A stretch of DNA of 64,000 nt, taken from a virus. Below the pieces are notes generated by a model, which was given only the letters and a program-made list of their open reading frames with translations, did no database searches and was not told where the DNA came from. Of this stretch, positions 12,043 to 62,110 are shown piece by piece (position 1 is the first letter of the stretch; every line of letters starts with the position of its first letter). Position numbers and translations under genes: made by a program. Location of the stretch: IMG/VR virus record IMGVR_UViG_3300000553_000004, positions 1 to 64,000 of that record, one strand, 5' to 3'.

Positions 12043-12375
12043 ATGAGTATGATGGATAATATTAACAGATTGATGGGTAATAAACCCAAGGCATTTTTAG
12101 TTGATGATACGTCCTCCGATTGCCGTAAAGGTGATGTGGATATTGTAAAATCCATGAATGTAGACATCGACCAATTTTCCGATTTTAATAAACTATTATT
12201 CAAACTTCGTACCAGTAAACTTAAAAAATATAAAATTGGTGTAATTCGTGAGAATGATACAAAATATCCATCACAGGTATTATTGAAATTCATAAAGTTA
12301 ATAGACCCAAGTATAAAAATCATCACTTATAAGACTGAGATGGAACTTGAAAGAAAAGTAAGACATTGTAGTTGA
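12043..12375 (+). CDS. Hypothetical protein with a receiver-like fold, 110 aa
   Basis: Start chosen at ATG 12043 because upstream in-frame codons overlap the previous coding region. The alternation KAFLVDDTSSDC, helix, FNKLLFKLR, YKIGVIRE, LKFIKLIDPSIKIITYKT resembles the beta/alpha pattern of a response-regulator receiver (VDD acidic pair, final Lys strand), but I cannot place the phospho-acceptor with confidence. Its TGA lies inside the -35 box of the next gene's promoter. Confidence 0.45.
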   Translation: MSMMDNINRLMGNKPKAFLVDDTSSDCRKGDVDIVKSMNVDIDQFSDFNKLLFKLRTSKLKKYKIGVIRENDTKYPSQVLLKFIKLIDPSIKIITYKTEMELERKVRHCS

Positions 12376-12400
12376 CGTGATATAGGTTGTCGGATATACT
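12372..12400 (+). promoter_or_regulatory. Sigma70-like promoter of the Mom-like gene
   Basis: TTGACG (12372-12377), a 17-nt spacer and TATACT (12395-12400). The upstream stop codon TGA (12373-12375) is embedded in the -35 box, and the downstream ATG at 12409 is 8 nt after the -10, so the mRNA is predicted to start at or next to AUG. Confidence 0.7.
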
Positions 12401-12408
12401 AGATGTAT

Positions 12409-13185
12409 ATGTCAATTGAGAATTATTTTGATGTTACAAAGGTAATAATCAGAAAAATAAACAAAAAAATAGCCAAGAATATGATTGTAAAAAATCACTA
12501 TTCTCATAAATGGTCTTTATGCCAAGTGGCTTATGGTGTTTTCTATATTACCAACGAACAATCACCATTCTTCGATAATGTTGGTGAAAAATTGATAGGA
12601 TGTGTTATTTATGGTCAACCTGTGGGTAGGTCTGCGGCCGAATCCATATCAGAACTTATAAAAATCGATGAAGTCTTCGAATTGACTAGATTGTTCATTC
12701 ATGATGGTTATGGTAGAAATATTGAAAGTTATACAATCGGAGAATCTATGAAGATGGTAAAACGAGATTTTCCGAAAATTAGAGCTATAATTTCCTATGC
12801 TGATGGGGAACAAAATCACAAAGGGACGATTTACCAAGCGTCAAACTTCTATTATCAGGGAAATTCATCATTGGCTCTGATGCCTAATTTTTCAATCTCT
12901 TTAAAAGGACAACCATATGAATGGATGCATTCTAGGACGGTTTCTTCTACATATGGTTCTCACAATGTAGACCATATCAAAAAGTGTATAGGACATACGT
13001 TTTGGAGAAAGAAAGAGTCTACTAAACATAGATATGTCTATCTACTTGGGAGTAAAGTTGATAAGAAAAAGATTCTAAAGAATCTTAAACATGACTTTTT
13101 ACCATATCCTAAAGGAAATAATTATAAAGATGAGATTGAAGAAATTGTGGTAGATAACCCAATAGAAAATCCATTCTTTGGGTGA
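12409..13185 (+). CDS. mom: Mom-like DNA adenine modification protein (GNAT-type)
   Basis: A 258-aa protein resembling phage Mu Mom, which converts adenine in DNA to a bulky modified base and so blocks restriction. Family-like segments: MIVKNHYSHKW, AYGVFYITN, GCVIYGQPVG, FELTRLFIHDGYGRNIES, PKIRAIISYADGEQNHKGTI and YQASNFYYQGNS. The longer frame begins at ATG 12403, but the -10 box ends at 12400, so the second ATG (12409) is the likely start. The C-terminal 70 residues are basic and may bind DNA. Two DruA-like genes lie nearby (15482, 19004). Family call fairly confident; the chemistry of the modification is not readable. Confidence 0.72.
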   Translation: MSIENYFDVTKVIIRKINKKIAKNMIVKNHYSHKWSLCQVAYGVFYITNEQSPFFDNVGEKLIGCVIYGQPVGRSAAESISELIKIDEVFELTRLFIHDGYGRNIESYTIGESMKMVKRDFPKIRAIISYADGEQNHKGTIYQASNFYYQGNSSLALMPNFSISLKGQPYEWMHSRTVSSTYGSHNVDHIKKCIGHTFWRKKESTKHRYVYLLGSKVDKKKILKNLKHDFLPYPKGNNYKDEIEEIVVDNPIENPFFG

Positions 13186-13221
13186 AGTCTTCATATTTAT
13201 AGTGATATAGACAAGACCGCT

Positions 13222-14052
13222 ATGAATGACATAAACAAATTTAGAAATATCGTCAGAGAATGTATCTCTGAAATTAAGAAGGAATCTAACCCAAAGGAAT
13301 CCCTAAAGGAATCTCTCCGTGGTATTGTACGAAGTGTCTTGAAGGAAGCGTCGACATCGACCAAGCCAGACCATACCAAGGAAGAAAAGGAAACTATTTC
13401 TAAGGGATACGAGAAGGATGGTAATCAACGATTGGATAAGACCAATGACAAACAACAGAAGGAACTTGAGACAATAGTTCATGGAATTGACCCTACTTGG
13501 GAAGCTTATTGGGACGACCATAATCAATTGATTGTACGAGCCCAGAATCTTTTATACGTTCGTATCTGTCCTCAATTTGAAGATAAATATAACGTCGATG
13601 CTATGGTAAAGTTGGTTGATAGAGTTAGAGCTATTGCGTTGTCATGGGAGCAGGTCAAAGCATTTATTAAAGCTAATTTCAGTGATTTGAAGAAAACTAC
13701 TAAGGCTGATGTATTGAAACAGACTTCTTTAGACCACTATAAAGATAGAGATGTAAACAAAAAAGAAGCCGGGCCTCGACATGATATTATAAAAAACAGA
13801 GGTGAGAAGAATAATGGTGAAGATGCTAAGATTAAAAACACCAAAAAATCTGATATGGACTATAACGAACCTCAGACCAAGAGGGACGAAGATATGCCAG
13901 ACCAACCTATGAAAAATGTGACTGACCAAGGTAAAGACCCCGAATTCAAGAACAGGGATATTAAAAAAACGGATAAAGTCAAGCCTCAGAAACATAAAGA
14001 TGATAAAAAACTCAAAGCATCTGATAAAAAGACTCCGAAGTTTAAACGTTAA
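13222..14052 (+). CDS. Hypothetical highly charged Lys/Asp-rich protein, 276 aa
   Basis: The N-terminus carries amphipathic repeats (NPKESLKESL, GIVRSVLKEAS); residues about 85-155 form the only compact-looking segment (HGIDPTWEAYWDDHNQLIV); the rest is Lys/Asp/Asn-rich and probably disordered. A TATTTATA motif lies 20 nt upstream. Similar VLKE segments occur in the proteins at 32132, 44594 and 48158. Possibly virion-related; no function assigned. Confidence 0.55.
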   Translation: MNDINKFRNIVRECISEIKKESNPKESLKESLRGIVRSVLKEASTSTKPDHTKEEKETISKGYEKDGNQRLDKTNDKQQKELETIVHGIDPTWEAYWDDHNQLIVRAQNLLYVRICPQFEDKYNVDAMVKLVDRVRAIALSWEQVKAFIKANFSDLKKTTKADVLKQTSLDHYKDRDVNKKEAGPRHDIIKNRGEKNNGEDAKIKNTKKSDMDYNEPQTKRDEDMPDQPMKNVTDQGKDPEFKNRDIKKTDKVKPQKHKDDKKLKASDKKTPKFKR

Positions 14053-14074
14053 TCGTTTATCTTAAACACTCAAT

Positions 14075-14104
14075 AAAACCGTGGTTAATCCCACGGTTTT
14101 TATT
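14075..14104 (+). terminator. Rho-independent terminator
   Basis: Stem CCGTGG (14079-14084) and CCACGG (14091-14096), extended by AAAA/TTTT, loop TTAATC, ending in a T-rich tail. It follows the Lys-rich gene by 22 nt and precedes a new promoter. Confidence 0.85.
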
Positions 14105-14110
14105 TTGCGC

Positions 14111-14138
14111 TTGACTTCTTATATGGATTTGGTATACT
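14111..14138 (+). promoter_or_regulatory. Sigma70-like promoter, leaderless type
   Basis: TTGACT (14111-14116), a 16-nt spacer and TATACT (14133-14138), beginning 7 nt after a terminator. An ATG (14146) lies 7 nt after the -10 hexamer, the spacing seen at several other promoters here. Confidence 0.7.
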
Positions 14139-14145
14139 CTTGTAA

Positions 14146-14202
14146 ATGGCGCAAAATTCCCGAATGGACAAAATTACCAAGTGTGTAAAAATAGACAGTT
14201 GA
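14146..14202 (+). CDS. Possible 18-aa leaderless ORF
   Basis: MAQNSRMDKITKCVKIDS follows a good promoter at the distance predicted for a leaderless transcript. Its TGA (14200-14202) lies within the -35 box of a second promoter. The placement is the only evidence; it may be a leader peptide or a remnant. Confidence 0.3.
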   Translation: MAQNSRMDKITKCVKIDS

Positions 14203-14227
14203 CATTAAAAGAATTATTTGATATGAT
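14199..14227 (+). promoter_or_regulatory. Second tandem sigma70-like promoter
   Basis: TTGACA (14199-14204), a 17-nt spacer and TATGAT (14222-14227). It would give a leader of about 100 nt to the gene at 14333, which has an AAAGGA ribosome binding site. The leader has no ORF longer than about 20 codons and no clear hairpin. Confidence 0.65.
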
Positions 14228-14332
14228 GGGTGTGAAGGTTATCGATAAACAAATTTAAAATGACCTGTGGATTTACGGTAAAATGTTCGATTGTAAATTC
14301 CAAATTTATAGGAACATAAAGGAAAAATAATT

Positions 14333-14740
14333 ATGAACGAAAGAAAAACACAACGAAAAAACAAGACAAAGCAGGTAATTGCGTGGCCCTCACACGATAC
14401 GTATTTTAGTATCGATACTCTAATTGAATCCAATTCCCACATGCTTACTACATCCGGCTCTGATATTACACTTCGAGTTCGATTGAATAAAGCCATCACG
14501 GAAGAAAATCTTGTGGCGGCGATTGGACAAAAGAGTTCCGGTAAAGGTAGACCTCAATTGGTATTCGCTATGAGGCCTGTCAAACAATCTGCCATCGACA
14601 AAGCCACCGCAGATGGAATATCAGTCTCTATGACTAAAATTATGCCTGTCATGGAAATAACATCACAAACGCCTACTCCTATCGTTACACAAGTAACAAA
14701 TATCACTTCCGATAAAACTCAAACAGTTAGTGTTCAATAA
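14333..14740 (+). CDS. Hypothetical protein, 135 aa
   Basis: It has a very basic N-terminus (NERKTQRKNKTKQ), a central folded part (RLNKAITEENLVAAIGQKSS, GKGRPQLVFAMRP) and a Thr/Pro-rich tail. The basic start suggests nucleic-acid or membrane contact. The AAAGGA ribosome binding site and its own tandem promoters support expression. No family recognised. Confidence 0.55.
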   Translation: MNERKTQRKNKTKQVIAWPSHDTYFSIDTLIESNSHMLTTSGSDITLRVRLNKAITEENLVAAIGQKSSGKGRPQLVFAMRPVKQSAIDKATADGISVSMTKIMPVMEITSQTPTPIVTQVTNITSDKTQTVSVQ

Positions 14741-14760
14741 CGTTCGATAATACCATACAT

Positions 14761-14958
14761 ATGATTAAAAAGAAAAAGTCAAAGAAACAAAAATCTAGGC
14801 CAATCGATTTACATATGTATGGTATTTTTGACAATAAAAAGAACACAGTCATAAAAATAAGTTTAGAACAGACTGATATTCAGATGGAGATAGCGTTGAT
14901 GGGCGGATTGAAGTCACATCTAGAAGAATGTGAATTCGATATAAAATTAAGTTACTGA
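14761..14958 (+). CDS. Hypothetical small basic protein, 65 aa
   Basis: It starts with a Lys-rich segment (MIKKKKSKKQKSR), then a short beta-like region. A -10-like GATAAT ends 9 nt before the ATG. The 3' end overlaps the convergent gene by 12 nt. No family recognised. Confidence 0.45.
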   Translation: MIKKKKSKKQKSRPIDLHMYGIFDNKKNTVIKISLEQTDIQMEIALMGGLKSHLEECEFDIKLSY

Positions 14959-15468
14959 TGCATTACCCTCAAACATCATAAAAAATTTAAAGGAATTCTT
15001 TATAGTAAAATCTTCTTTGTAGTAGAAAATTGATACTTCTTTTGTTAGATGGTTCATCGTGGCTTGAATTTTTTGATTTGAACCATATACGATAGGCATA
15101 CTAAAATCCGTATCAAATAACACGGACAACACCGGCGTTAATTTAAAATAATGATAGAACTTCTCCGTTTTATTAACATAATGATATCTTAATGGTGGCT
15201 TTGAATGTTTTCCGTTTCCTTTAATGGCAATCGTCTTTTTAGGCCCCTTCTCAAAAAAGTTCTTAGAATTAATTTCATAATAAAATACCATAGAATTTTG
15301 TGGAAGTTTAACTGTTTTTATAATAGCTAAAGACCCTATTATTATAGGCATATCCATTTTCATGTCGAACAGCGCATACGAAGATGAAGTTAATTTAAAA
15401 CAGTGGAAATACGTCGGTGGTATAGTTTTTATAGTCGATTTGTCGTTGACTTTAGTTGTGATTGACAT
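14947..15468 (-). CDS. Hypothetical protein with two tandem about 45-aa repeats
   Basis: A 173-aa protein containing an internal duplication: YFHCFKLTSSSYALFDMKMD plus MPIIIGS in the first half and FYHYFKLTPVLSVLFDTDFS plus MPIVYGS in the second, each followed by a strand ending FYYE or FYYK. No catalytic motif. Its ATG (15466-15468) is only 13 nt from the divergent ATG at 15482. A TATACT on the - strand (15477-15482) ends 8 nt before its start. Confidence 0.55.
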   Translation of the reverse strand: MSITTKVNDKSTIKTIPPTYFHCFKLTSSSYALFDMKMDMPIIIGSLAIIKTVKLPQNSMVFYYEINSKNFFEKGPKKTIAIKGNGKHSKPPLRYHYVNKTEKFYHYFKLTPVLSVLFDTDFSMPIVYGSNQKIQATMNHLTKEVSIFYYKEDFTIKNSFKFFMMFEGNASVT

Positions 15469-15473
15469 ATAAT
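15446..15473 (+). promoter_or_regulatory. Sigma70-like promoter of the first DruA-like gene, inside the divergent gene
   Basis: TTGACT (15446-15451), a 16-nt spacer and TATAAT (15468-15473), with ATG 15482 after 8 nt. The -35 box and spacer are coding sequence of the divergent gene, whose start codon touches the -10 box. Confidence 0.75.
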
Positions 15474-15481
15474 ATAAGTAT

Positions 15482-16783
15482 ATGTCTGATTTTTTTAATC
15501 AACCACGAATTATAACAGAAAAAGATTTTATTTCTACGCTAAATTCCTATGCCAATAAGGCGTGTAGTCCGGCAGGAAAATATGCCCACAATGACGCATT
15601 CAAATCTGTCACAGGAGAGGATGTCTTTAAATTTGAAGAAAATAAAACTAAACTGATTAATGATTTGAATTTCCTGATTAGTTTAGATGTTGAGGAATTT
15701 ACTTTTCGTAAGAAGTGGGAAGAATTGAGAGACATAAATCCATACATTTCTAAAGTCGATGAACAAACCAAAGCCTTAATTTGGGAACCTACTGACATCA
15801 ACAATGAAGAATTGACTATTGAAGAAATCACGAATCTAAAGCCTGTAGTTGTTGTGGTAGATGATACTTTAGAACGTACTTGGACTACTTTGAGATATTA
15901 TTGTAGTAGCGCCGAATACAATCAGGCCCCTGGCCGATTCATTAAATTTCTAATAAGAGATGAAGTTACTACTAAAGTTTTAGGAGTATGTTCTATTGCC
16001 AGTGACGTTATTTCCATATCCGATAGAGATAAGTATATAGGTTGGACTCCTGAAAATAAACTCAAGGATAAGATGTTACGACATTCCGCTATTGGGACTA
16101 CCATCGTTCCGACTCAACCATTCGGTAGTAATTTTCTAGGTGGTAAACTCGTCGCCGCCATGGTCACGTCTGGCGTTGTCCGTAATGAGTGGGAATGTCC
16201 GTCTGGTGGAGATTCCAATCCAGGAAAGCTGGTTGGTATGACGACTACTAGTTTATACGGAAGACCATCGATGTATAATAGTTTAAAATGGTGGACAGAT
16301 GTGGGGGATTCAAAGGGAAAAATACCAATTAAGCCGTATGAAAAATCGTATGAAGCTTGGCATGGTTGGTTAAAACAACATAAAAAGAAAGAATATGAAG
16401 AGGCCATGACACAAAAAGAGGGTATATCAGGCCCAGTCACAGGCGCAAAGATGAGAGTCTTAAATATGATATTTAAGGCGTGTAACGTCAAACAATCTGA
16501 ATACTGTCATGGATATCAGAGAGGGGTATACTATTCTTGTTTTTATGAAAATACAAAAGAATTCCTATGTAATAAAATTACAATGGATAAATTGGTCATG
16601 AAGCCACTATTTAAAGATGACACCAAATCCATAGTGGACTGGTGGAAGCCAAGGGCTATAGAACGATATAAAAAATTAAAAGCGGCCGGACGGTTGAATC
16701 CTGAGAAGCTGTTTTATAATGATATGACTCATATGGAATATGAAGATGCTAAAAAACGTTTCTTTGATGCTGTAGGAAAATAA
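15482..16783 (+). CDS. DruA-like (DUF4338) protein, 433 aa
   Basis: The central part matches the DUF4338/DruA layout: IKFLIRDEVTTKVLGVCSIA, ISISDRDKYIGWT, and a region corresponding to the NNSRF block of the related protein at 19004. The N-terminal 120 residues and C-terminal 150 residues are additional. DruA is best known from the Druantia anti-phage system, but DUF4338 proteins also occur in phages with unknown roles. Expressed from a predicted leaderless promoter. It could act in DNA modification, superinfection exclusion or another process; only the family-level call is made. Confidence 0.5.
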   Translation: MSDFFNQPRIITEKDFISTLNSYANKACSPAGKYAHNDAFKSVTGEDVFKFEENKTKLINDLNFLISLDVEEFTFRKKWEELRDINPYISKVDEQTKALIWEPTDINNEELTIEEITNLKPVVVVVDDTLERTWTTLRYYCSSAEYNQAPGRFIKFLIRDEVTTKVLGVCSIASDVISISDRDKYIGWTPENKLKDKMLRHSAIGTTIVPTQPFGSNFLGGKLVAAMVTSGVVRNEWECPSGGDSNPGKLVGMTTTSLYGRPSMYNSLKWWTDVGDSKGKIPIKPYEKSYEAWHGWLKQHKKKEYEEAMTQKEGISGPVTGAKMRVLNMIFKACNVKQSEYCHGYQRGVYYSCFYENTKEFLCNKITMDKLVMKPLFKDDTKSIVDWWKPRAIERYKKLKAAGRLNPEKLFYNDMTHMEYEDAKKRFFDAVGK

Positions 16784-29620: not shown

Positions 29621-30295
29621 TTATATTATTTGTTTTTCTCTTTCTCTGACGAGGTTTTCGTATTTTGGTTGAGTCGGCGTTGCCGCTCCGGCTTCTTTCC
29701 ATTTATCAAGGATATTTGACTTTCCTATATCATGATATGGACTTTTGTCATCAAACTTTCTAGCGGCCGCGTCGGTTGACTCGACTACCGGAACTTTACT
29801 TCTTAATTTGATTAATTCTGATTCCGTTTGTGAATGTGTAGCAGAAATTTTAATTTCATTAGTAGAACCGAATCCGCCTTGTCCACGTTCGGTTTCATTT
29901 AAATTATCTACAACACTAATTTGAACATTATTATAGAATTCAAAAATGATTTGAGCTATCGGAACTTCTTTTCCATCTTTCACTAAGGGAAGATTTAATT
30001 CTTCTTGTCCAAGATTGATTAGAACAACTCCGACTTCGCCTCTATAATCTTCATCGATTACTCCGGCCAATACGTCTAATCCATTTTTAAAAGCCAATCC
30101 ACTTCTGGGAGCTATACGACCATACATCCCATATGGGATGGCCATCGATAGTCCCGTTTTAAACAGCTTTCTTTCAAGTGGTTTTAGTGTATATCTTTCA
30201 ATTGAATAGAGGTCGTAACCTGCTGATTTAGGACTTCCTTTTGTTGGAATCGTAGCTAAATCATTTAGTTTTTTTATTTGTAATGTAACACTCAT
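29621..30295 (-). CDS. dut: dUTPase with a C-terminal extension
   Basis: All five dUTPase motifs are present: SAGYDLYS, IAPRSGLAFK, LAGVIDEDYRGEVGVVL, an APIAQ-like VPIAQIIFEF and the C-terminal P-loop-like ERGQGGFGST. It hydrolyses dUTP to dUMP and keeps uracil out of DNA. About 75 residues follow motif 5, beyond the usual length, with a Pro/Lys-rich end. It is embedded in the glycan operon rather than near other nucleotide genes. Confidence 0.92.
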   Translation of the reverse strand: MSVTLQIKKLNDLATIPTKGSPKSAGYDLYSIERYTLKPLERKLFKTGLSMAIPYGMYGRIAPRSGLAFKNGLDVLAGVIDEDYRGEVGVVLINLGQEELNLPLVKDGKEVPIAQIIFEFYNNVQISVVDNLNETERGQGGFGSTNEIKISATHSQTESELIKLRSKVPVVESTDAAARKFDDKSPYHDIGKSNILDKWKEAGAATPTQPKYENLVREREKQII

Positions 30296-30328
30296 ATAAA
30301 ACCTATTATATCTAATTTAACTAATTTT

Positions 30329-31810
30329 TCAAGTTATTATATCTAATTGTAGTTTTATTTTTTCTTGGTCTATCACGGGAATTTCAAATCCCATACCACC
30401 TGGCATTAAGTTGCCGACGTAATCCTTTTCCGTAAATACACCAAACGTTTTCACAGGTTTGAAATTCTTCAAGGTATAATCCATACAAGTGACGAACTGA
30501 TTACACATATTTTCGGAATTGATTCCACCTTCATTTAAGGCCCATTGGCGACCTTTCAAACCTAAGAGTTCACGTTTATCTGCTCCGGCCAGATACCAAT
30601 ACATCATACCTTCAGCGGCATCTTGCCAACGAGACATATCATCAAAGATATATGGCGTCGGTATTGACCCTTGAACACATTGAGAAGTAGGATACACCGG
30701 ATATGCCCATACACCATGTTTCTTATATTTACCAACATTGTTGGAACCGAAGTGTAATCCGAATTCAATAGGCGAACCGTCATCTTGAACTTGTCCGGTT
30801 TGGTCTTGAAGGCCGCCGGTGACAGATACTATGATAGGAGTTCCTGCCATAAGAGACTCTGCGGTCGACAATCCAAATCCTTCGTTAGATGATAAATTGA
30901 TTGTAATATCTGCGATGTTATATATCACATTCATGTCTTCCGGTGTATATTTTGCAACAGAAAATAGAACATCATATTCAGGACAGAATGCTTCTTTTAC
31001 TGCTAATAAGTCCGTACCGGCATCTTGACGAACCTCGGTATGAAGAACTAATACACATTTAGCGGCCTGTTCTTTTGTAAGGTTATCACAAAATGCTTTG
31101 TAAGCCAACATGATGTTACTAGTTCTCTTTCTCTGAACGTTTCTCGAATTGTAAAAAATTACAAATTCATAATCTTTATTTCCAAACAACTCTTTACGTT
31201 TCTTTTTCAAGATTGAGTCGTCGGTAGGAATTGGATAGAACATTTTACTATTAATTCCGTGTGGAACATAATGTAATACGGTTTTATCATTTGTATTCTC
31301 AGAATCAACTGTGGATACTTTATCAGGTCCCAAAACCCATTTGTTGATGTTATAGGTTTGTTTACTGATGGACATTAATAAGTCACATGATTCATAGTAT
31401 GGTTTATTATACATTGGATACGGGACGTCATCCCAGATGTTAAGATACGTCAGTGGAATCTTCGAACGAATTTGTCGTTCAATGGCATACAACCAGCCCC
31501 AAAATCTAGGGTCTGTAAAGTGCATTATTGCGTCTGGCTTTTCTCTGTCCATGATATTGAAGAGAAGTTCCTCGTTGCCATATCCATCGACGGGATACAA
31601 CGTTACCTTCGCGTCTGCAACTCCGGTCAACTGTGCGGTCGCAGAATCCATATTAATTACCTTGCCTTTGTCTGGATGTTGAATTGCCCCTGCGATTTGA
31701 ACCCAATCGTAATTTGCGACGGTTCCGAGGACAAGTTCCCTTGACATAGTGGCTACGCCAGAATGCATTCTTAAATCATCTGACAACAATAGAATTTTTG
31801 GTTTTGACAT
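30329..31810 (-). CDS. Glycosyltransferase family 4 (GT-B), 493 aa
   Basis: PKILLLSDDLRMHSGVATMS at the N-terminus (sugar acceptor side), FVIFYNSRNVQRKRTSNIML at the hinge, and INLSSNEGFGLSTAESLMAG at the donor site, the GT4 E-x7-E pattern. First enzyme gene after the RHH regulator, 14 nt from it, so it is likely the head of the glycan operon. Confidence 0.8.
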   Translation of the reverse strand: MSKPKILLLSDDLRMHSGVATMSRELVLGTVANYDWVQIAGAIQHPDKGKVINMDSATAQLTGVADAKVTLYPVDGYGNEELLFNIMDREKPDAIMHFTDPRFWGWLYAIERQIRSKIPLTYLNIWDDVPYPMYNKPYYESCDLLMSISKQTYNINKWVLGPDKVSTVDSENTNDKTVLHYVPHGINSKMFYPIPTDDSILKKKRKELFGNKDYEFVIFYNSRNVQRKRTSNIMLAYKAFCDNLTKEQAAKCVLVLHTEVRQDAGTDLLAVKEAFCPEYDVLFSVAKYTPEDMNVIYNIADITINLSSNEGFGLSTAESLMAGTPIIVSVTGGLQDQTGQVQDDGSPIEFGLHFGSNNVGKYKKHGVWAYPVYPTSQCVQGSIPTPYIFDDMSRWQDAAEGMMYWYLAGADKRELLGLKGRQWALNEGGINSENMCNQFVTCMDYTLKNFKPVKTFGVFTEKDYVGNLMPGGMGFEIPVIDQEKIKLQLDIIT

Positions 31811-33927: not shown

Positions 33928-33955
33928 TTGTAAATGTGGGTGAATGATATATAAT
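33928..33955 (+). promoter_or_regulatory. Sigma70-like leaderless promoter
   Basis: TTGTAA (33928-33933), a 16-nt spacer and TATAAT (33950-33955), 8 nt before ATG 33964. Upstream, TATTTATA (33902-33909) is followed after 4 nt by a 9-codon ORF (MKIRPCKCG) that may be a remnant. Confidence 0.6.
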
Positions 33956-33963
33956 GTATGATT

Positions 33964-34656
33964 ATGAAAAATATAAGAATGTTGTTGTTAAACTTGTTGG
34001 TGATTGTTAATATGCCGGAATTGTCTCTAAGTCAAGACTATACGAATGGGGTGTATGTAGAGAACGGTAAAACCACTGAGATTGATAAATCCATACATGA
34101 AATCACACCTACCAATTCTCCTGAAATTTTATATTTCTCAAACGACTTGATTGTAAAGGTGAATACGAATAGTGATTTTGTAATAAACAGTTTTTTTCAA
34201 GACATCAAGAATACGAATTCTACTCCTGAAAAGATAAAATCAACAACTCATAATTTTTCTGCTACATTAAATAATGGTATAATCATAGTGACTTATTCTG
34301 GAGGCGATGAAAATTCTTCTTGTGTAATTTCAACTCCATACACCGACCACGAACTATCAAGGGGAACGTTTTATTTTCAGGTAACTGACGGTAGAGTCAT
34401 AGTGTTCACTTTGGACGGCTCGGTAAAATCCAATGGAAATTCGAGAAATGGAACTACCACGCCTACGGGATATGCAGTGATAGCGATTCAGAATAATATC
34501 GGCATTTTAGACTCTAAAGTTTCTTTTTATACTGATAAAGTGAAACAGGCAGTGATAGATAAATTAGTGATTGAGTCTAAGGATATTACGAATTTAAAAA
34601 ATTCTACTGTTTTTATAAGAATCAACGGCAAAATCATTGGCGTTGTTATAAATTGA
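33964..34656 (+). CDS. Hypothetical secreted or periplasmic protein, 230 aa
   Basis: KNIRMLLLNLLVIVNMPELSLS is a probable signal peptide. The rest is rich in Asn, Thr and Ser with beta-prone segments (GIIIVTYSGGDENSSCVIS). ATG 33964 was chosen over 33958 because the -10 box ends at 33955. An exported product could act at the host envelope. No domain recognised. The stop TGA lies within the next promoter's -35 box. Confidence 0.55.
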   Translation: MKNIRMLLLNLLVIVNMPELSLSQDYTNGVYVENGKTTEIDKSIHEITPTNSPEILYFSNDLIVKVNTNSDFVINSFFQDIKNTNSTPEKIKSTTHNFSATLNNGIIIVTYSGGDENSSCVISTPYTDHELSRGTFYFQVTDGRVIVFTLDGSVKSNGNSRNGTTTPTGYAVIAIQNNIGILDSKVSFYTDKVKQAVIDKLVIESKDITNLKNSTVFIRINGKIIGVVIN

Positions 34657-34680
34657 CTTAATCTTTTATATCGGTATAAT
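34653..34680 (+). promoter_or_regulatory. Sigma70-like leaderless promoter with embedded stop codon
   Basis: TTGACT (34653-34658) contains the upstream TGA (34654-34656). A 16-nt spacer, TATAAT (34675-34680), 7 nt and ATG 34688 follow. The whole 31-nt intergenic region is promoter. Confidence 0.8.
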
Positions 34681-34687
34681 TGGTAAA

Positions 34688-34990
34688 ATGAGACTTAGCC
34701 AATTACAATTATTAGATGATTCGGAGATTTCACTTCTTCTATACGTCGTAAATGTATTAGACCCAATACAATCTCCAAAAGTTGATATGGAAAATCCAAA
34801 AAATATTTTGTGGATTCGTCACGACGCATTACTTTGGAAATTATCCCAACATCATTCAAAATTAACCGAATCCGGTAAAGAGGTTTTTAAGAGTTTAATG
34901 ACCAAATTAAATAAATCTCCTGTACAAGAACATATAGATTATGAACATTCCACAAACACAACACTTACACAGTCAGAGTTTCAATTCTAA
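34688..34990 (+). CDS. Hypothetical protein, 100 aa
   Basis: A helical, soluble-looking protein (LSQLQLLDDSEISLLLYVVN at the start; ILWIRHDALLWKL in the middle). A strong promoter 7 nt upstream supports the start. It overlaps the next gene by 50 nt in another frame. Unknown function. Confidence 0.5.
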   Translation: MRLSQLQLLDDSEISLLLYVVNVLDPIQSPKVDMENPKNILWIRHDALLWKLSQHHSKLTESGKEVFKSLMTKLNKSPVQEHIDYEHSTNTTLTQSEFQF

Positions 34991-35252: not shown

Positions 35253-35283
35253 CGTTTTATATCCTAACGATATACTTATTACT

Positions 35284-35439
35284 ATGGGTCGCAATAAATT
35301 AAACCGAACGGATGAAGAAATACGAGAACAAAATCGTATTCGTCAAAGGAGATTTTATGACAAGCATAGTAAACGAATCAGAAAAGAAAAACTTAGAAAA
35401 TATTACGAAAAAAAGGAAGTATCCAATAAAGGTAGTTGA
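35284..35439 (+). CDS. Small basic protein, MGRxKLNRT family copy A, 51 aa
   Basis: MGRNKLNRTDEEIREQNRIR continues into a basic helix with QRRFYDKHSKRIRKEKLRKY. It is homologous over about 45 residues to a second small ORF at 49469-49621. TATACT (35271-35276) ends 7 nt before ATG. From 35357 a homing endonuclease is read in the +1 frame over its second half. Highly basic repeats suggest DNA or RNA binding; function unknown. Confidence 0.6.
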   Translation: MGRNKLNRTDEEIREQNRIRQRRFYDKHSKRIRKEKLRKYYEKKEVSNKGS

Positions 35440-38861: not shown

Positions 38862-38889
38862 TTGCCCAATTGTAATAGTTCGATATAAT
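38862..38889 (+). promoter_or_regulatory. Sigma70-like leaderless promoter
   Basis: TTGCCC (38862-38867), a 16-nt spacer and TATAAT (38884-38889), with ATG 38898 8 nt after. The -35 is weak, but spacing matches the other promoters. Confidence 0.55.
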
Positions 38890-38897
38890 TCATACTT

Positions 38898-39140
38898 ATG
38901 AAATCCAAAGAGACGACATTCACCATAACTTGTACAATGAAAACTCGTTGGGTTCCACATTTCCTCAGTATGTTAAAATATATGCAACAATTGGGTAATC
39001 TTGGTGGTTCTAGAAAAGTAGCATTATATTCAGATGGTGATGGAGATTTCAGACCAAAATTTCAATGGGGCACAACTCTATCTGATGTTGCCGTTCCCAT
39101 AGAGGACAATCGAGGAAACCGATTGTATGACGCCGGATAA
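38898..39140 (+). CDS. Hypothetical conserved phage protein, 80 aa
   Basis: FTITCTMKTRWVPHFLSMLK, then LGGSRKVALYSDGDGDFRPK, then RGNRLYDAG. I recognise this as a recurrent small phage family without known function. Expressed from its own promoter after the polymerase. Confidence 0.6.
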   Translation: MKSKETTFTITCTMKTRWVPHFLSMLKYMQQLGNLGGSRKVALYSDGDGDFRPKFQWGTTLSDVAVPIEDNRGNRLYDAG

Positions 39141-39151: not shown

Positions 39152-39691
39152 ATGACACAAAAAAAGAAGGGTAAAGTATTTAACTTCAAAGACCAGATGC
39201 GCATAGGCGACATCGGAGAATCTGATTTTATTAAAATATACGAAAAACTGAAACCAGTTAAGAGTATAAAGGATAGAAAGATTGATTTTACTCTAAATAA
39301 TGGCAAAACCGTAGAATTAAAGACGGATAGTTATTCTATGGAAAAGACTATAAATTTCTTTATGGAAAAGAATACTATATTGCCTGATGCTAGGGAACTA
39401 TTAGGTGGCCCATGGCGTTCTCATGACCATAAGATAGATTATTTTGTATATTATTACATGAATGACAAAGTGTTTTTTTGGTTTGAACCTAAATCCCTTT
39501 GTAAATTTTTAGACAAGTATATAAAATCTAATAAGATTAAACCTATTTCAATTCCAAACCGAGACGGTAAGGGAAACATCTTTCGTTCATATGGATATAA
39601 AATTCCACGTGCGGATATAGTTGATGTCCTTTTACGAGAACATAAGATTGAGATAGATTATAAAATTGAAGAGAAGAAAAAAGAATCTTGA
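39152..39691 (+). CDS. Putative PD-(D/E)XK endonuclease, 179 aa
   Basis: RIGDIGESDFIKIYEKLKP provides a helix with Glu; DRKIDFTLNNGKTVELKTDS gives the D ... E-x-K catalytic signature. The C-terminal half is Lys-rich. Members of this kind cut DNA or resolve branches, but the exact role is unknown. It lies between DNA polymerase and the macrodomain gene. Stop TGA is inside the next promoter's -35 box. Confidence 0.5.
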   Translation: MTQKKKGKVFNFKDQMRIGDIGESDFIKIYEKLKPVKSIKDRKIDFTLNNGKTVELKTDSYSMEKTINFFMEKNTILPDARELLGGPWRSHDHKIDYFVYYYMNDKVFFWFEPKSLCKFLDKYIKSNKIKPISIPNRDGKGNIFRSYGYKIPRADIVDVLLREHKIEIDYKIEEKKKES

Positions 39692-39716
39692 CTTTTTACA
39701 TGATGGGGTAGATAAT
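39688..39716 (+). promoter_or_regulatory. Sigma70-like leaderless promoter with embedded stop codon
   Basis: TTGACT (39688-39693) contains the upstream TGA (39689-39691). A 17-nt spacer, GATAAT (39711-39716), 8 nt and ATG 39725 follow. Confidence 0.7.
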
Positions 39717-39724
39717 ACCTTATT

Positions 39725-40285
39725 ATGGCAGATGAAATTCAACCAGTTCAAAGTAGATTTAAAATTTCATATAAATCTATTTTCGACATTCCCGCCGACG
39801 CATACGTAAATACAATAAATTGTATTGGTGTGATGGGAGCCGGAATAGCTTTAGAATTTAAGAATCGTTACCCGAAGATGTATGGACATTATAAAAATCA
39901 ATGTTCCACACATGCAATTCGTCCTGGCGATTGTTACGCATATCATGAGAATGGGTTATATCTTCTTGGCCTTGCGGTAAAGGACGACTGGCGTCACTGG
40001 AGTACACTAGAATGGTTGGAATCATCAATCAAGTCACTTAAACTAGTTTTATTGGAAAATGATATCAAATCTGTCAATCTTCCTTTGCCGGGTGGAAAAA
40101 ATGGAAGACGTGGGCCTTTCGGCAAAGTACCAGGATTTACTCCGCCACCTGAAAGGGAAGATATAAAAGTTCTCGTTGGAAAAGAATTAATACCATTCGC
40201 AGATAAATTCGGTATTGATATAACTCTCTGTTTACCGGATGAGGCTCCCAAAATAGCTCAGATGACATTGGAAAATTTCATGTGA
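39725..40285 (+). CDS. Macrodomain protein, possible ADP-ribosyl hydrolase
   Basis: A 186-aa single macrodomain: AYVNTINCIGVMGAGIALEF holds the ADP-ribose-binding Asn and glycine loop; SVNLPLPGGKNGRRGPFG the second phosphate loop. The closest pattern I know is the macrodomain of DarG, which removes ADP-ribose from DNA. In a phage it could reverse DarT-type DNA ADP-ribosylation by the host, or act on protein or NAD products. Strong own promoter, next to the sliding clamp. Hydrolase activity is inferred, not seen. Confidence 0.72.
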   Translation: MADEIQPVQSRFKISYKSIFDIPADAYVNTINCIGVMGAGIALEFKNRYPKMYGHYKNQCSTHAIRPGDCYAYHENGLYLLGLAVKDDWRHWSTLEWLESSIKSLKLVLLENDIKSVNLPLPGGKNGRRGPFGKVPGFTPPPEREDIKVLVGKELIPFADKFGIDITLCLPDEAPKIAQMTLENFM

Positions 40286-49418: not shown

Positions 49419-49426
49419 TATTTATA
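49419..49426 (+). promoter_or_regulatory. TATTTATA motif before the GIY-YIG frame
   Basis: TATTTATA ends 4 nt before ATG 49431, the first start codon of the GIY-YIG frame. The sequence TATTTATATCAT is nearly the same as that before the other GIY-YIG gene (17392). Confidence 0.4.
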
Positions 49427-56104: not shown

Positions 56105-57268
56105 ATGAAGATTAAAAACATTCAAGATATTGTTCGTCCCGAGGGGACTGTAGTATTCGTAACTGGCGTCACCGGTCAAGATGGTAGTCACATGATAGAT
56201 TATCTCATCCGTGAGACAAATGTACATGTTATAGGCGGCGCAAGGCGATTGAGCGTTGAGAATCATATCAATCTACGTCATCTTGAGAATGAATCCAGAT
56301 TTCAATTGGTAAACTTCGATTTAACCGACTCCCATTCAATTTATAAAATCGTAGAACATGCGAAGCCTGATTATTTTATCAATTTCGCGGCTCAAAGTTT
56401 TGTAGCCTCTTCATGGGACTTTGCCCGACAGACTTGGGAATGTAATTCTACGGCTGTATTAGATTGTTTGGAAGCCATCAAAAGACTAGCTCCTAATTGT
56501 AGATTCTATAACGCCGGCTCTTCGGAAGAGTTTGGAAACGTTGCCTATTCACCACAAGATGAAAACCATCCGGCAAGACCCAGAAGCCCTTACGGCGCAT
56601 CTAAATCTGCGGCCAGAACGTTAGTCAAGGTTTATAGGGAATCATATGGTATATACGCTGTACAAGGTTGGTTGTTCAATCACGAAGGAACTCGTCGTGG
56701 CGAAGAATTCGTTACTCGTAAGATTACACAAGCCGTCGCCGGAATCTTCAATGCTATTGCAAATGATACTCCGATAGTTCCCTTAGAACTCGGTAATATC
56801 GATGCTTATCGTGATTGGTCAGATGCTGAAGATGTCATGGATGGGGTATGGAGAATGTTGAATCAGGAAAAATATCTTAATGAAACTATGCAGAAGAATT
56901 TTCATGAAAGAAATCCAGGTAGTAACTGTATAGTTGGTATTGATTTCTCAAGAGGATTCACACCAAAAGATTACGTCGTCGGAACTGGTGAAAAACACAC
57001 CATCAGAGAATTTGTTGAAAAGTCATTTTCTTTGGTAAATTTGAATGGTGAGTGGTCTGGTAAGGGAGTTGACGAAGTTTATACAGTAAATGGACAAATT
57101 TTAATGAAAATTAATCCAAAGTTTTATCGTCCTGCTGAAGTTGAATCATTAATTGCCAATCCTACAAAAATTAAAGAAGAATTGGGTTACGTGTCAAAAA
57201 CTACCTTTGAAGGTCTTGTTGATAAAATGTTGAGTAATGACTTGACACTAATTAAGCCTGTGGTATAA
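56105..57268 (+). CDS. gmd: GDP-mannose 4,6-dehydratase
   Basis: A 387-aa SDR enzyme making GDP-4-keto-6-deoxymannose, precursor of GDP-fucose, GDP-rhamnose or perosamine. FVTGVTGQDGSHMIDYLI is the NAD(P) site; FINFAAQSFVASSW, NAGSSEEFGNVA (active-site region) and SPYGASKSA (Tyr-x3-Lys) follow, then LFNHEGTRRGEEFVTRKI of GMD. ATG 56105 is preferred over TTG 56099. It complements the fucosyltransferase at 22532. Its stop TAA lies within the -10 box of the next promoter. Confidence 0.85.
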   Translation: MKIKNIQDIVRPEGTVVFVTGVTGQDGSHMIDYLIRETNVHVIGGARRLSVENHINLRHLENESRFQLVNFDLTDSHSIYKIVEHAKPDYFINFAAQSFVASSWDFARQTWECNSTAVLDCLEAIKRLAPNCRFYNAGSSEEFGNVAYSPQDENHPARPRSPYGASKSAARTLVKVYRESYGIYAVQGWLFNHEGTRRGEEFVTRKITQAVAGIFNAIANDTPIVPLELGNIDAYRDWSDAEDVMDGVWRMLNQEKYLNETMQKNFHERNPGSNCIVGIDFSRGFTPKDYVVGTGEKHTIREFVEKSFSLVNLNGEWSGKGVDEVYTVNGQILMKINPKFYRPAEVESLIANPTKIKEELGYVSKTTFEGLVDKMLSNDLTLIKPVV

Positions 57269-57269
57269 T
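57242..57269 (+). promoter_or_regulatory. Sigma70-like leaderless promoter with stop codon in the -10
   Basis: TTGACA (57242-57247), a 16-nt spacer, TATAAT (57264-57269) and, after 8 nt, ATG 57278. The dehydratase stop TAA (57266-57268) is part of the -10. A near-consensus promoter lying in coding sequence. Confidence 0.8.
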
Positions 57270-57277
57270 TCCATCCT

Positions 57278-57928
57278 ATGAAAAGTGGATTAACATATAT
57301 TATATTTGTCATTGACCGCTCTGGTTCAATGAGTTCAATTAGAGCTGACATGATTGGTGGATTTAATACATTCATCAAATCACAACGGGATGCAAACATT
57401 GGCGATTGCCGTGTCTTTGCATATAAATTCGATACCGATTATGAGACTTTGTTCGAAAATCTCGAACTAGCGTCCGTACCAATGTTGACTTATGCCAATT
57501 ATCAACCAAGAGGCGGAACGGCTCTCTATAATTCTCTAGGAAAGACTGTTGTAGATATGGGCATCAAATTGTCCTCATTGCCGGAATCTGAACGTCCTGA
57601 GAAGGTTTTGATTGTTACCATTACCGATGGTGAAGACAATGAGACTCTTGTTAATTACAAGGATGCTAGATTTTCTGCTGAAGACGTCAAGGAAATGACT
57701 AAACATCAAACTGAAAAGTATAAGTGGGATTTCGCTTATATCGGAGCCAATCAAGATGCTTGGTCAGTTGGTAGTTCTATGGGAGTGACTAATAATCTTA
57801 ATTATGTCGCATCGGCGGCTGGAACTGCCGGAGCATTTAAGTCTCTATCCAGTAGTACATTATCATATCGCTCGTCAAATCAAGCATTTGCGTTTGCCGA
57901 CTCAACTCCGCCAAGTAACGTAATTTAA
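57278..57928 (+). CDS. von Willebrand A domain protein, 216 aa
   Basis: Complete MIDAS: VIDRSGSMSS near the start, the Thr in RGGTALYNSL and Asp in VTITDGEDNETL. The domain resembles TerY-type vWA proteins of bacterial stress and phage-associated clusters. The last 40 residues are Ser/Ala-rich. Strong own promoter predicts high, independent expression. The partner and role are unknown; its stop overlaps a convergent small gene by 4 nt. Confidence 0.75.
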   Translation: MKSGLTYIIFVIDRSGSMSSIRADMIGGFNTFIKSQRDANIGDCRVFAYKFDTDYETLFENLELASVPMLTYANYQPRGGTALYNSLGKTVVDMGIKLSSLPESERPEKVLIVTITDGEDNETLVNYKDARFSAEDVKEMTKHQTEKYKWDFAYIGANQDAWSVGSSMGVTNNLNYVASAAGTAGAFKSLSSSTLSYRSSNQAFAFADSTPPSNVI

Positions 57929-58182: not shown

Positions 58183-58197
58183 TGAGAAGACTGCTCC

Positions 58198-58951: not shown

Positions 58952-58979
58952 ATTCTACCACGTTTACTATTATTGTCAA
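58952..58979 (-). promoter_or_regulatory. Sigma70-like promoter of the HNH gene
   Basis: On the - strand TTGACA (58979-58974), a 16-nt spacer and TAGAAT (58957-58952). The gene start is about 67 nt further, so this one has an ordinary, A-rich leader. Confidence 0.65.
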
Positions 58980-58985
58980 GCGTAA

Positions 58986-59606: not shown

Positions 59607-59609
59607 ATC

Positions 59610-59617
59610 AATAAATA
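59610..59617 (-). promoter_or_regulatory. TATTTATT motif before clpP
   Basis: On the - strand TATTTATT lies 3 nt before ATG 59606, next to a strong hairpin that ends the upstream gene, so a transcription start here is plausible. Confidence 0.5.
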
Positions 59618-59622
59618 GAAAG

Positions 59623-59649
59623 CCCGTAGTGAAATGTATCCACTACGGG
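59623..59649 (-). terminator. Terminator-like hairpin between phosphatase and ClpP genes
   Basis: A perfect 9-bp stem: CCCGTAGTG (59623-59631) and CACTACGGG (59641-59649). On the - strand it is followed by CTTTCTATTTATT, only moderately T-rich. Confidence 0.6.
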
Positions 59650-59674
59650 TTGTTACGCCAATTTTAATTTCAAA

Positions 59675-60529
59675 CTACTTTAAATCGCAAGATTTATGGA
59701 TAGTTAGTGCGCCATTCTCATAAATGGCGTAGTTTTGAGAGCCAGGATGAGTATCAAGACACAGATTATATGACGTAGTTTCCGTCAAAGTTGGGGTGAA
59801 AAGAAATTTATCACCTAATGTTGTATTAATGCTAACATCCCCCATAGGGAGGACTCCATATTGGTCTGCCCCATGCGCTACTACCACCCACTTCACCGAA
59901 CGTTGTGGTGTATGTCCAACAATTTGATGGATGCCTCTGATTGGGCCAAACTCTTGATTCCAGTCACACCACAATAATCCTCCATAATTGCATGAACGGT
60001 ACGACCGAGAGAATCCAGCGCAAGTGAACCAGTGTTCTTCATTTGCATACAGATTCTTTATCGCTTGAATTGAATCTCGCTCTAATTTTTCAACAACATC
60101 ACTTAATTTAGCTTTGGTAATTGTTGAAGAATTTAAACTATCAGGATTAATCCAAGACGGATGGACGCCCGCATGACTTAATAACCATTTATTGTCGAGG
60201 ACGTGAAAAAACTTTAATTTTTCCCAATCTTCTATGGTAACGATGTCATTTATGGCAATAGATTTAAAATCGGTATAACCAGAACACCGAGTTCGAAAAT
60301 TCTTATTGAACCAATAATGTGAGTCGTGATTTCCGCATAGATGGATTCGATTTTTCGTATTGATGGATTGAACGAACCATTTAGCTACGTCTGAAATTAT
60401 ATCGACGTCATCATGAAAATCATCAAAATAATCGCCCAAAAATATTGTCATATCTGGGGCGACTTTTGATATAATATTTTCAACCAAATTACATCGGTTG
60501 TGTACATCAGGTAGTATTAGATATTTCAT
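59675..60529 (-). CDS. Calcineurin-like metallophosphoesterase, 284 aa
   Basis: Metal-site blocks in order: ILPDVHNRCN, MTIFLGDYFDDFHD, HLCGNHDSHYW, LLSHAGVHPSW, and QIVGHTPQRSV. Such enzymes remove phosphates from protein or RNA ends, or cut nucleotides. The leaderless promoter and nearness to an RNA kinase/ligase set suggest a possible role in RNA end processing, but that is inference. Confidence 0.8.
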   Translation of the reverse strand: MKYLILPDVHNRCNLVENIISKVAPDMTIFLGDYFDDFHDDVDIISDVAKWFVQSINTKNRIHLCGNHDSHYWFNKNFRTRCSGYTDFKSIAINDIVTIEDWEKLKFFHVLDNKWLLSHAGVHPSWINPDSLNSSTITKAKLSDVVEKLERDSIQAIKNLYANEEHWFTCAGFSRSYRSCNYGGLLWCDWNQEFGPIRGIHQIVGHTPQRSVKWVVVAHGADQYGVLPMGDVSINTTLGDKFLFTPTLTETTSYNLCLDTHPGSQNYAIYENGALTIHKSCDLK

Positions 60530-60537
60530 AATCTATT

Positions 60538-60565
60538 ATTATAACACAACCATCGTAGAAGTCAA
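60538..60565 (-). promoter_or_regulatory. Sigma70-like leaderless promoter of the phosphoesterase
   Basis: On the - strand TTGACT (60565-60560), a 16-nt spacer and TATAAT (60543-60538), then 8 nt to ATG 60529. The upstream gene's stop lies 3 nt before the -35. Confidence 0.8.
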
Positions 60566-60568
60566 GCT

Positions 60569-60748
60569 TCAGAGTCCTGGTCCTTGGCCGCCGTCTCCGG
60601 GCCCCCACCAACTACCGTGGTCTTGAAACATTCCATCGCCAAATTGTTTTGGTTTCCTTGGTCGGCCTGGACTTTTCTTTCTCTTAATTGGATTGGCTAA
60701 CCAATATGTTAATCCGACTATAGTTATGACAGATAATATTATTTCCAT
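60569..60748 (-). CDS. Small membrane protein with Pro/Gly-rich tail, 59 aa
   Basis: MEIILSVITIVGLTYWLANP is a membrane anchor; a basic stretch (IKRKKSPGRPRKPKQ) and a tail WWGPGDGGQGPGL follow. It starts 4 nt after the preceding gene's stop. Function unknown; small one-pass proteins like this are common in phage operons. Confidence 0.5.
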   Translation of the reverse strand: MEIILSVITIVGLTYWLANPIKRKKSPGRPRKPKQFGDGMFQDHGSWWGPGDGGQGPGL

Positions 60749-60752
60749 AATT

Positions 60753-61253
60753 TTACAAGGTTATTATTAATTTCTTTTCTTTCTTTTCCCAACCGGCTTT
60801 GTTCATGTCTTCTTCGGTCATGATACTAATATCATCGTCAGACTGCATGAATAGAACACAAATTTGATTTTGTTTTAGTTTTTCCTGTCTCGGGTGAAGA
60901 ACTTGATTGGCAATGGCTCTTTGCATCATTTGAATACGTATCGGGTCTTGAACATTAAGTTTAATCAATACGACTGAATTTTTTGGAAGATTATCGAAGT
61001 CAATTGTATTACCCCACTTCACTATGCTCTCTATTCCTACTGGTGGAGTAGTGTCATCTGGTAGTTGCCATGTTTTTGTTACATCCCCACCTGGCATATG
61101 CGCAATATGCTTAGGTTGCCATACCACTCCCAATTCTTCACTATGAATCCACTGTCCTTTATCTGTTTGAGATTTTTCATTTAGTTCATCGATGAGTTTT
61201 ATAACTCGTTCCGACGCCGTTTGTTTTTCTGGCTTTGGTGTAATATTTTTCAT
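60753..61253 (-). CDS. Hypothetical protein, 166 aa
   Basis: Two-part: a helical N-terminus (SERVIKLIDELNEKSQTDKG) and a beta-rich C-terminal domain (NLPKNSVVLIKLNVQDPIRI). Contains EDMNKAGWEKKEKKL at the end. Three nt after the kinase gene, so part of the same transcript; no family recognised. Confidence 0.5.
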   Translation of the reverse strand: MKNITPKPEKQTASERVIKLIDELNEKSQTDKGQWIHSEELGVVWQPKHIAHMPGGDVTKTWQLPDDTTPPVGIESIVKWGNTIDFDNLPKNSVVLIKLNVQDPIRIQMMQRAIANQVLHPRQEKLKQNQICVLFMQSDDDISIMTEEDMNKAGWEKKEKKLIITL

Positions 61254-61256
61254 AAA

Positions 61257-61727
61257 TTACTTGACAATTACTTTATCAACTTCTTGACTGGTAGGTCGTT
61301 CATACTTGGCTACAAATCTATCGATAATTTCGTTTCCAACGTGTCTTTCACGTTGCGCATCTCTGCGGTAGAGTTCTTCCTTCGGAACTTCAAATGCCAC
61401 GGCGATAATGTAGGCTCCGGCGCCACGTCCCATGTTAATCCAATCTTTACGTGACTTCCTATTAACGTTGGTAGCATCAATCATGGCGCTTTTATCAGCC
61501 TTTAGAGTCTCCGACACCTTACGTCGTGCGATACCAAATGCAGCCGCTGAGACTGACTGGTCAGCTTCTCCTGAACCTATCTTAGCTCGGATTGCATCGG
61601 TAGAGACGTATTCAATGTTATTCTCTTCGGAAAATTTCTTTCCCCAAGTAGATTTACCACTTGCAGGTGGCCCCACGAGAAGGATTAGTGCCTTTTTCTT
61701 TTGTCCGCCTATTTCTAATTTATTCAT
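61257..61727 (-). CDS. Polynucleotide kinase-like P-loop kinase, 156 aa
   Basis: LILLVGPPASGKSTWGKKF is the P-loop, EYVSTDAIRAKIG the general-base Asp region, MIDATNVNRKSRKDW the acceptor site and RRDAQRERHVG the LID arginines, the same order as the kinase half of T4 Pnk and zeta-type kinases. The phosphatase half of T4 Pnk is absent. It overlaps the cyclic-phosphate receiver gene by 8 nt. Confidence 0.8.
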   Translation of the reverse strand: MNKLEIGGQKKKALILLVGPPASGKSTWGKKFSEENNIEYVSTDAIRAKIGSGEADQSVSAAAFGIARRKVSETLKADKSAMIDATNVNRKSRKDWINMGRGAGAYIIAVAFEVPKEELYRRDAQRERHVGNEIIDRFVAKYERPTSQEVDKVIVK

Positions 61728-62076
61728 TGAGTAATTGGGTTTTGTCTCTGTAATTTGTTAAGAGACTTTGTATATTTATTTTACCAACAGGATTCATCGA
61801 ATGGACTTGAAAGTCTGGCAATGGTTGTTCAGTCTTCATACAAAATTCGACTAACCATTTCGCACAGTCATATCCTGTCTTTTCTGTGTATTGACTTACA
61901 TTTGGATTGCCGTAATGTTCCCATGCCAAATCGTGGTCAAATGATATGAATTGAGGAAGTCCCTTTTTAAGTATCAGACGAACGAATTGGTTATAGTCCC
62001 TAGCCGTTTCCCACACACGAATATCTTGCAGGAATTTATTAGCATCACGAACATCATCTAAAAATAAATTATACAT
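61720..62076 (-). CDS. Cyclic-phosphate-processing receiver-domain protein (cREC), 118 aa
   Basis: NLFLDDVRDANKF holds the receiver-like DD pair, PQFISFDHDLAWEHYG a His/Asp pair, and TGYDCAKWLVEFCMK and VHSMNPVGKINIQSLLTNY complete the pattern of the cREC family, predicted by others to act on 2',3'-cyclic phosphates in RNA repair. Its own leaderless promoter heads the kinase operon. The predicted function comes from family reports and is not tested here. Confidence 0.75.
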   Translation of the reverse strand: MYNLFLDDVRDANKFLQDIRVWETARDYNQFVRLILKKGLPQFISFDHDLAWEHYGNPNVSQYTEKTGYDCAKWLVEFCMKTEQPLPDFQVHSMNPVGKINIQSLLTNYRDKTQLLNE

Positions 62077-62081
62077 ACTTT

Positions 62082-62110
62082 ACTATATCAGTTGAATACA
62101 ACCATGTCAA
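62082..62110 (-). promoter_or_regulatory. Sigma70-like leaderless promoter of the cREC/kinase operon
   Basis: On the - strand TTGACA (62110-62105), a 17-nt spacer and TATAGT (62087-62082), with ATG 62076 after only 5 nt. It fills the 39-nt gap after the RNA ligase gene. Confidence 0.7.

Follow-up and report, generated by a model that had tools for sequence, protein, structure and literature searches.

The first 64,000 bases of IMG/VR virus record IMGVR_UViG_3300000553_000004 (referred to here as the window; the full record has 214,733 bp) come from a phage in which sigma70-type promoters end directly in front of the start codons of genes. We consider it highly probable, at about 0.87, that this phage uses a leaderless, Shine-Dalgarno (SD)-independent gene expression system that is read by the host RNA polymerase. 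The arrangement of promoter and adjoining ATG is real, and it is stronger outside the window than inside it. Genes of the whole record were called crudely by codon bias, which yielded 334 genes. The gap is defined as the number of nucleotides between the last base of the -10 box and the ATG.

Start codons in a fixed register behind the promoter

Across the whole record, the pattern TTGAC-N16-19-TANNNT gave 207 promoter matches, and 94 of them were followed by an ATG at a gap of 5 to 9 nt, while the reversed pattern used as a control gave 0. When every ATG position after TTGAC-N-TANNNT was counted, 60 fell at gap 6 and 5 to 11 at each of the gaps 5, 7, 8, and 9. Markov control genomes contained 0 to 3 gap-6 matches, about 2 being typical, so that the genome-wide enrichment of -10 boxes before other start codons, whose absence would have refuted the original prediction by its own terms, is present. 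An unbiased two-box scan led to the same result: 65 of 141 strong intergenic promoters had an open reading frame (ORF)-opening ATG 5 to 9 nt past the -10 box, as compared with only 2 of 96 equally strong two-box matches located inside genes. Chance in AT-rich DNA might be invoked, as TATAAT-like words are common at 35 to 38% GC, but we count this explanation as already refuted by the reversed and Markov controls, and the AT-rich genomes of P-SSM2, T4, and HTVC008M show no excess of the arrangement.

The ATGs found in this position open genes. ORFs of at least 40 codons begin at 84 of the 93 distinct ATGs, against 26% of all ATGs in the record; the gap is exactly 6 in 57 of these 84 sites, and the spacer measures 16 bp in 69 sites. 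One could still argue that the promoter is located within the gene or on its border and that the protein starts at a codon farther on, preceded by an ordinary leader, since the crude gene calls placed the starts of some window genes farther downstream (38937, 33711). This is very improbable, however, as (i) frame 0 gives the best codon signal from codon 2 onward in 74 of the 84 ORFs, (ii) the next in-frame ATG lies a median of 28 codons downstream, (iii) SD sequences are found at near-background levels, and (iv) orthologs begin at the same methionine by sequence comparison.

The promoter consensus is ACGCTTGAC-N16-TANNNT; a TG frequently precedes the -10 box, and the group with gap 6 and a 16-bp spacer follows AcGCTTGACatt...TGaTAnanT....tATGAaa. 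The word GCTTGAC occurs 142 times in the record compared with about 15 times in Markov-2 genomes. Its reading as a MotA box was ruled out by reasoning, as the box lies at -35 and is not centered at -30. The sites are concentrated at 140 to 200 kb of the record (55 of 84, with a gap of exactly 6 in 46), and the window is a sparse part that contains 7 of the 84, mostly with gaps of 7 to 8.

Predicted transcription start

GCTTGAC promoters of the same kind also occur without an adjacent gene start (n = 53). A start codon is found farther downstream of 28 of them, and the remaining 25, which have no nearby ORF, include promoters of tRNAs and small RNAs. The seventh base after the -10 box is a purine in 48 of these 53 sister promoters (binomial p 4e-10), usually with a pyrimidine before it and a T after it, and at 170619 a tRNA-like sequence starts exactly at this base. 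This register does not depend on translation. At sites with gap 6, the predicted +1 would coincide with the A of the ATG, and we infer from the sequence that the mRNAs made there begin at the A of AUG.

We therefore propose the following mechanism. The host RNA polymerase, carrying its principal sigma factor (a sigma70-type holoenzyme), would read a strong phage promoter, and transcripts would start 7 nt past the -10 box, at an initiator of the form pyrimidine-purine-T. For about 84 genes, this initiator would coincide with or adjoin the start codon, with an exact match in 57, and thus the mRNA would carry a 5'-terminal or nearly 5'-terminal AUG, which the ribosome (70S or 30S-IF2) could bind directly. 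The same promoter class would also give rise to mRNAs with A-rich, SD-less leaders, to tRNAs, and to small RNAs.

Several points weigh against this mechanism. With its usual gap of 8 nt, the window leaves room for leaders of 1 to 3 nt; the relatives show no clear sign of a fixed purine at +1, although contig G122 is suggestive; and T4 has an ATG 5 to 9 nt after the -10 box in 7 of 36 promoter matches (reversed control 3), indicating that ordinary phages also hold the arrangement at a low level. Moreover, the 5' ends are predictions from the sequence, and both promoter spacing and the ability to translate leaderless mRNA would depend on the host. Transcription might also start 5 to 6 nt after the -10 box and 1 to 4 nt before the AUG, chiefly at the window sites with gaps of 7 to 9, giving very short leaders that are SD-less but not strictly 5'-terminal. 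Gaps of mostly 7 to 8 in the window fit such leaders, as does the fact that bacterial transcription starts vary by 1 to 2 nt. We regard them as unlikely, though, because the 6-nt register dominates and coincides with the nucleotide-7 purine of the other transcripts, and because the bases ahead of the A are mainly pyrimidines at several sites of the window (at 57278: TCCATCCT).

About eight small transcripts between 164 and 195 kb of the record are predicted to start with GUGAG at the same +1, for example, at L023:4990(-), L023:17770(-), L024:6485(+), L024:3871(-), and L024:9913(+). Three of them have a common hairpin-like core, GGCGAAC-CAA-GCCGGAAGGC-A-GUUCCGC, and no Rfam family matched these small RNAs. 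They may represent small RNAs or else mini-ORFs that begin with GUG and have no leader. At L024:3858-4069, a 106-bp unit that contains the promoter of one such transcript is tandemly duplicated with 99% identity.

Shine-Dalgarno use and leaders

The original prediction had envisaged a leaderless first gene followed by SD-led downstream genes. The latter part of this rule was for the most part not borne out. Of the 242 genes that lack a leaderless promoter, 14.5% are preceded by an SD match of at least 4 nt; a control position gives 8% and internal ATGs give 11.6%. A match of at least 5 nt precedes 5.8% of these genes against a background of about 2%, while for ORFs of at least 100 amino acids the frequency (5.7%) is no higher than at the control position (6.9%). 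In leaderless-type genes, a 4-nt match was found in 6 of 92, which is below background. A minority of genes do use SD sequences, as indicated by 5-nt matches in 8 of 71 window genes. The operon-internal genes are mostly tightly packed, 117 of the 242 lying within 20 nt of the preceding gene, which makes translational coupling their likely route of expression.

The leaderless first gene, on the other hand, is supported by the register, the coding signal, and the nucleotide-7 purine, but not as a rule for every first gene, since the start codon lies farther downstream for about 28 promoters of this class. Many of these have A-rich leaders of 20 to 60 nt (50% A over all leader bases), with an SD sequence in 1 of the 28.

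Identity of the phage and occurrence of the arrangement in other phages

The record encodes a T4-type family B DNA polymerase (phrog_262, E 7e-172) and the further T4-type genes UvsX, clamp loader, and DnaB-like replicative helicase, as well as RIIA. The description of the phage as T4-like thus holds for its replication genes, but the T4 late promoter TATAAATA is not enriched (33 sites in the record versus 22 to 32 in Markov controls), and we therefore file the record as T4-related solely on account of its replication module. Several TATAAATA sites at neighboring gene edges, located at 49426(-) and 44589(-) in the window and at 77739, 196805, and 210186 of the record, are preceded by TTCATA or a similar sequence; they are too few to be called late promoters. 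The closest cultured phage by polymerase is Microcystis phage Mel-JY01 (41% identity), and megablast of 20 kb against the phage collection returned no match.

In ten related IMG/VR contigs, a promoter lies beside the ATG in 31 of 56 orthologs of leaderless-type genes compared with 10 of 219 orthologs of other genes. We also compared phages by the share of promoter matches followed by an ATG 5 to 9 nt after the -10 box, with the reversed pattern as a control. The relatives G001, G011, G010, and G009 gave 21/63, 21/44, 13/44, and 11/36, respectively, and the share was near background in KVP40 (2/73), Syn9 (2/52), P-SSM2 (5/63), and Mel-JY01 (5/41, control 4). The Thermus phage phiYS40 gave 12/70 (control 2).

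Further dense contigs were found by scanning IMG/VR with the pattern, and, being selected for holding it, they show that dense cases exist but not how common they are. The ratio of pattern to control was 74:2 in G122, 59:0 in G125, 32:0 in G123, 41:1 in G127, and 14:0 in G126. The large contigs G122 and G125 (189 and 279 kb) belong to the same polymerase clade as the record and contain 76 and 62 leaderless sites, respectively, versus about 6 in shuffles, while G128, with a distant T4-type polymerase, has no excess. The siphovirus-type contig G127 (L203-L205, about 52-92 kb) holds 41 leaderless sites versus 2 in shuffles, with gaps of 5 to 6 and often CC before the ATG; it lacks a T4-type polymerase of this clade and encodes a lambda-J-like tail protein, and therefore looks like an independent lineage. 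It is conceivable, though we would put it somewhat below even odds, that genome-wide leaderless, SD-independent expression is widespread and largely unrecognized in large uncultured phages and has at least two unrelated origins (a T4-related clade and a siphovirus-type phage), and that in the present phage one phage-specific TATG initiator would serve as both the transcription and the translation start of most promoter-proximal genes.

Sites in the window

All 13 sites listed in the original prediction were found (cf. Table 1). The 11 with paired boxes have gaps of 5 to 8, and their -35 box begins with TTGAC in nine cases, the exceptions being 33964 and 38898; the two with a -10 box alone, 35284 and 3500, have gaps of 7 and 9. 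A blemish of that list is the ORF from ATG 14146, which has only 18 codons and is doubtful as a gene, and the site at 30295(-) was absent from it. With a strict pattern (TTGAC, spacer of 16 to 18, TANNNT, ATG 5 to 9 nt after it), the window contains nine sites, seven of which open ORFs of at least 40 codons, whereas 40 windows randomized with a Markov-1 (dinucleotide) model contained on average 1.1 sites and 0.13 ORF-opening ones (maximum 4 and 2, respectively).

Table 1 Promoters adjoining an ATG in the window, with their preservation in related contigs
Span (strand)	-35 box	-10 box	ATG	Gap (nt)	Gene	Arrangement in relatives
12372..12411 (+)	TTGACG 12372-12377	TATACT 12395-12400	12409	8	Mom-like DNA modification	preserved in 3, 74-80% protein identity
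14111..14148 (+)	TTGACT 14111-14116	TATACT 14133-14138	14146	7		
15446..15484 (+)	TTGACT 15446-15451	TATAAT 15468-15473	15482	8	DruA-domain protein	
30293..30332 (-)	TTGAAA 30332-30327	TATAAT 30310-30305	30295	9		preserved in 7, 28-64% identity
33862..33900 (-)	TTGACA 33900-33895	TAAAGT 33877-33872	33864	7	PD-(D/E)XK-type exonuclease	both boxes, 17-bp spacer, and gap 6-8 preserved in 7, 66-84% identity
33928..33966 (+)	TTGTAA 33928-33933 (weak)	TATAAT 33950-33955	33964	8		
34653..34690 (+)	TTGACT 34653-34658	TATAAT 34675-34680	34688	7		
38862..38900 (+)	TTGCCC 38862-38867 (weak)	TATAAT 38884-38889	38898	8		not preserved (ortholog start comparison)
39688..39727 (+)	TTGACT 39688-39693	GATAAT 39711-39716	39725	8		
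57242..57280 (+)	TTGACA 57242-57247	TATAAT 57264-57269	57278	8		preserved in 3, gap 7-8
60527..60565 (-)	TTGACT 60565-60560	TATAAT 60543-60538	60529	8	RNA-ligase-like	preserved in 2
62074..62110 (-)	TTGACA 62110-62105	TATAGT 62087-62082	62076	5		preserved in 2, with gap 8
35271..35286 (+)	no clear box	TATACT 35271-35276	35284	7		
3485..3502 (+)	no clear box	TATACT 3485-3490	3500	9	Homing endonuclease-like	

The host

The arrangement might not be a phage-specific device at all, and the phage might instead follow what is standard in its host, which would be a bacterial lineage (perhaps Patescibacteria) with routine leaderless genes; we treat this as a tentative option. The record encodes the elongation factor EF-Ts at 71647-72231 (L018:11647-12231), which is also found in the relative G001, but not in the records of T4, Syn9, P-SSM2, HTVC008M, or Mel-JY01. 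When genome contigs were searched with it, homologs from the candidate phyla radiation (CPR) came first, and a Patescibacteria-like rpsB-tsf locus was found in a reduced-genome metagenome-assembled genome (MAG) of 0.6 Mb with 38% identity. In the 59 genomes of the phylum of this MAG, the pattern is about 2.5 times as frequent as its reversed control (approximately 476 versus 189, hand-summed), reaching 11-17 to 0 in some, and there were fewer occurrences per Mb in the phylum of a gammaproteobacterial bin. The low use of SD sequences points in the same direction. Against it stands the density, as the bacteria hold about 9 sites per Mb and the phage about 400 per Mb. The EF-Ts link is weak, given an identity of just 38% and a scan that depends on exact peptide matches, and Patescibacteria are a lead rather than a host assignment. 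A scan of the genome contigs with the polymerase alignment yielded no relative.

Ribosomal protein S21 was considered as a phage-encoded translation modifier, since loss of S21 is said to favor leaderless mRNA. It was rejected, as the gene is absent from the record and from the five relatives searched; Mel-JY01 has one.

Comparison with known systems

Leaderless middle and late transcripts of the hot-spring phage phiYS40 were reportedly described by Sevostyanova et al. in 2007. A review states that most middle and late transcripts of this phage are leaderless (PMC3594737). phiYS40 resembles the present phage in its large size and in the reported lack of leaders throughout an entire gene class, and sites with gaps of 5 to 9 are also visible in its genome, but it has a Thermus host and belongs to another lineage. 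The record differs further in that its regulon comprises about 84 genes, lies largely in a region of small genes that appears to be early, and has a full -35 box together with a TG-extended -10 box. The textbook phage leaderless mRNA is that of lambda cI, in which the PRM transcript starts at the AUG; the likeness ends there, as it concerns a single gene and not a genome-wide rule. T4, KVP40, Syn9, P-SSM2, and Mel-JY01 share the T4-type DNA polymerase, UvsX, clamp loader, replicative helicase, and RIIA with the record, whereas the leaderless arrangement is near background in all five. In bacteria, leaderless genes have been described as "-10-adjacent ORFs" in Deinococcus-Thermus (PMC12340547) and in Actinobacteria (PMC3160421), with TANNNT about 6 to 7 bp before the ORF and initiation at or beside the AUG; those, however, are cellular chromosomes in which the -35 box is optional and an SD-like sequence ranks second among the main motifs.

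Leaderless regulons are thus already known from phage phiYS40 and from bacteria. Phage transcripts have been called "often leaderless" in passing (PMC5312081), but we found no description of leaderless expression in T4-like phages in the open-access literature. What the present data add is leaderless expression shared across a clade of T4-related phages, poor in SD sequences and served by promoters with both boxes, along with the evidence for a second lineage. If the 5' ends are as predicted, the phage and its relatives would offer dozens of natural 5'-AUG mRNAs from one strong promoter class beside SD-less, A-rich leaders, and hence abundant natural material for testing SD-independent initiation. 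Gene starts could then be corrected in many uncultured phage genomes, and the promoter-ATG register could hint computationally at hosts that translate leaderless mRNA.

Other genes of the record

A phage-encoded transfer-messenger RNA (tmRNA) lies at L025:712-1104 (131 bits); its tag of 23 residues, ANLNRLANLDFSFSVNEVEVAVA, is unusual, and nothing similar to the tmRNA DNA was present in the phage collection. The same part of the record carries a tRNA with the anticodon CUA (amber) at L025:7801-7876, and TAG ends only 14 of 333 record genes. Beyond the window, an NAD synthetase-like gene with a leaderless promoter is found at L019:11284-13341, and with members of the NAPRTase, ribose-phosphate pyrophosphokinase, Sir2, and ADP-ribosylglycohydrolase families encoded elsewhere outside the window, it makes up an NAD salvage and turnover set.

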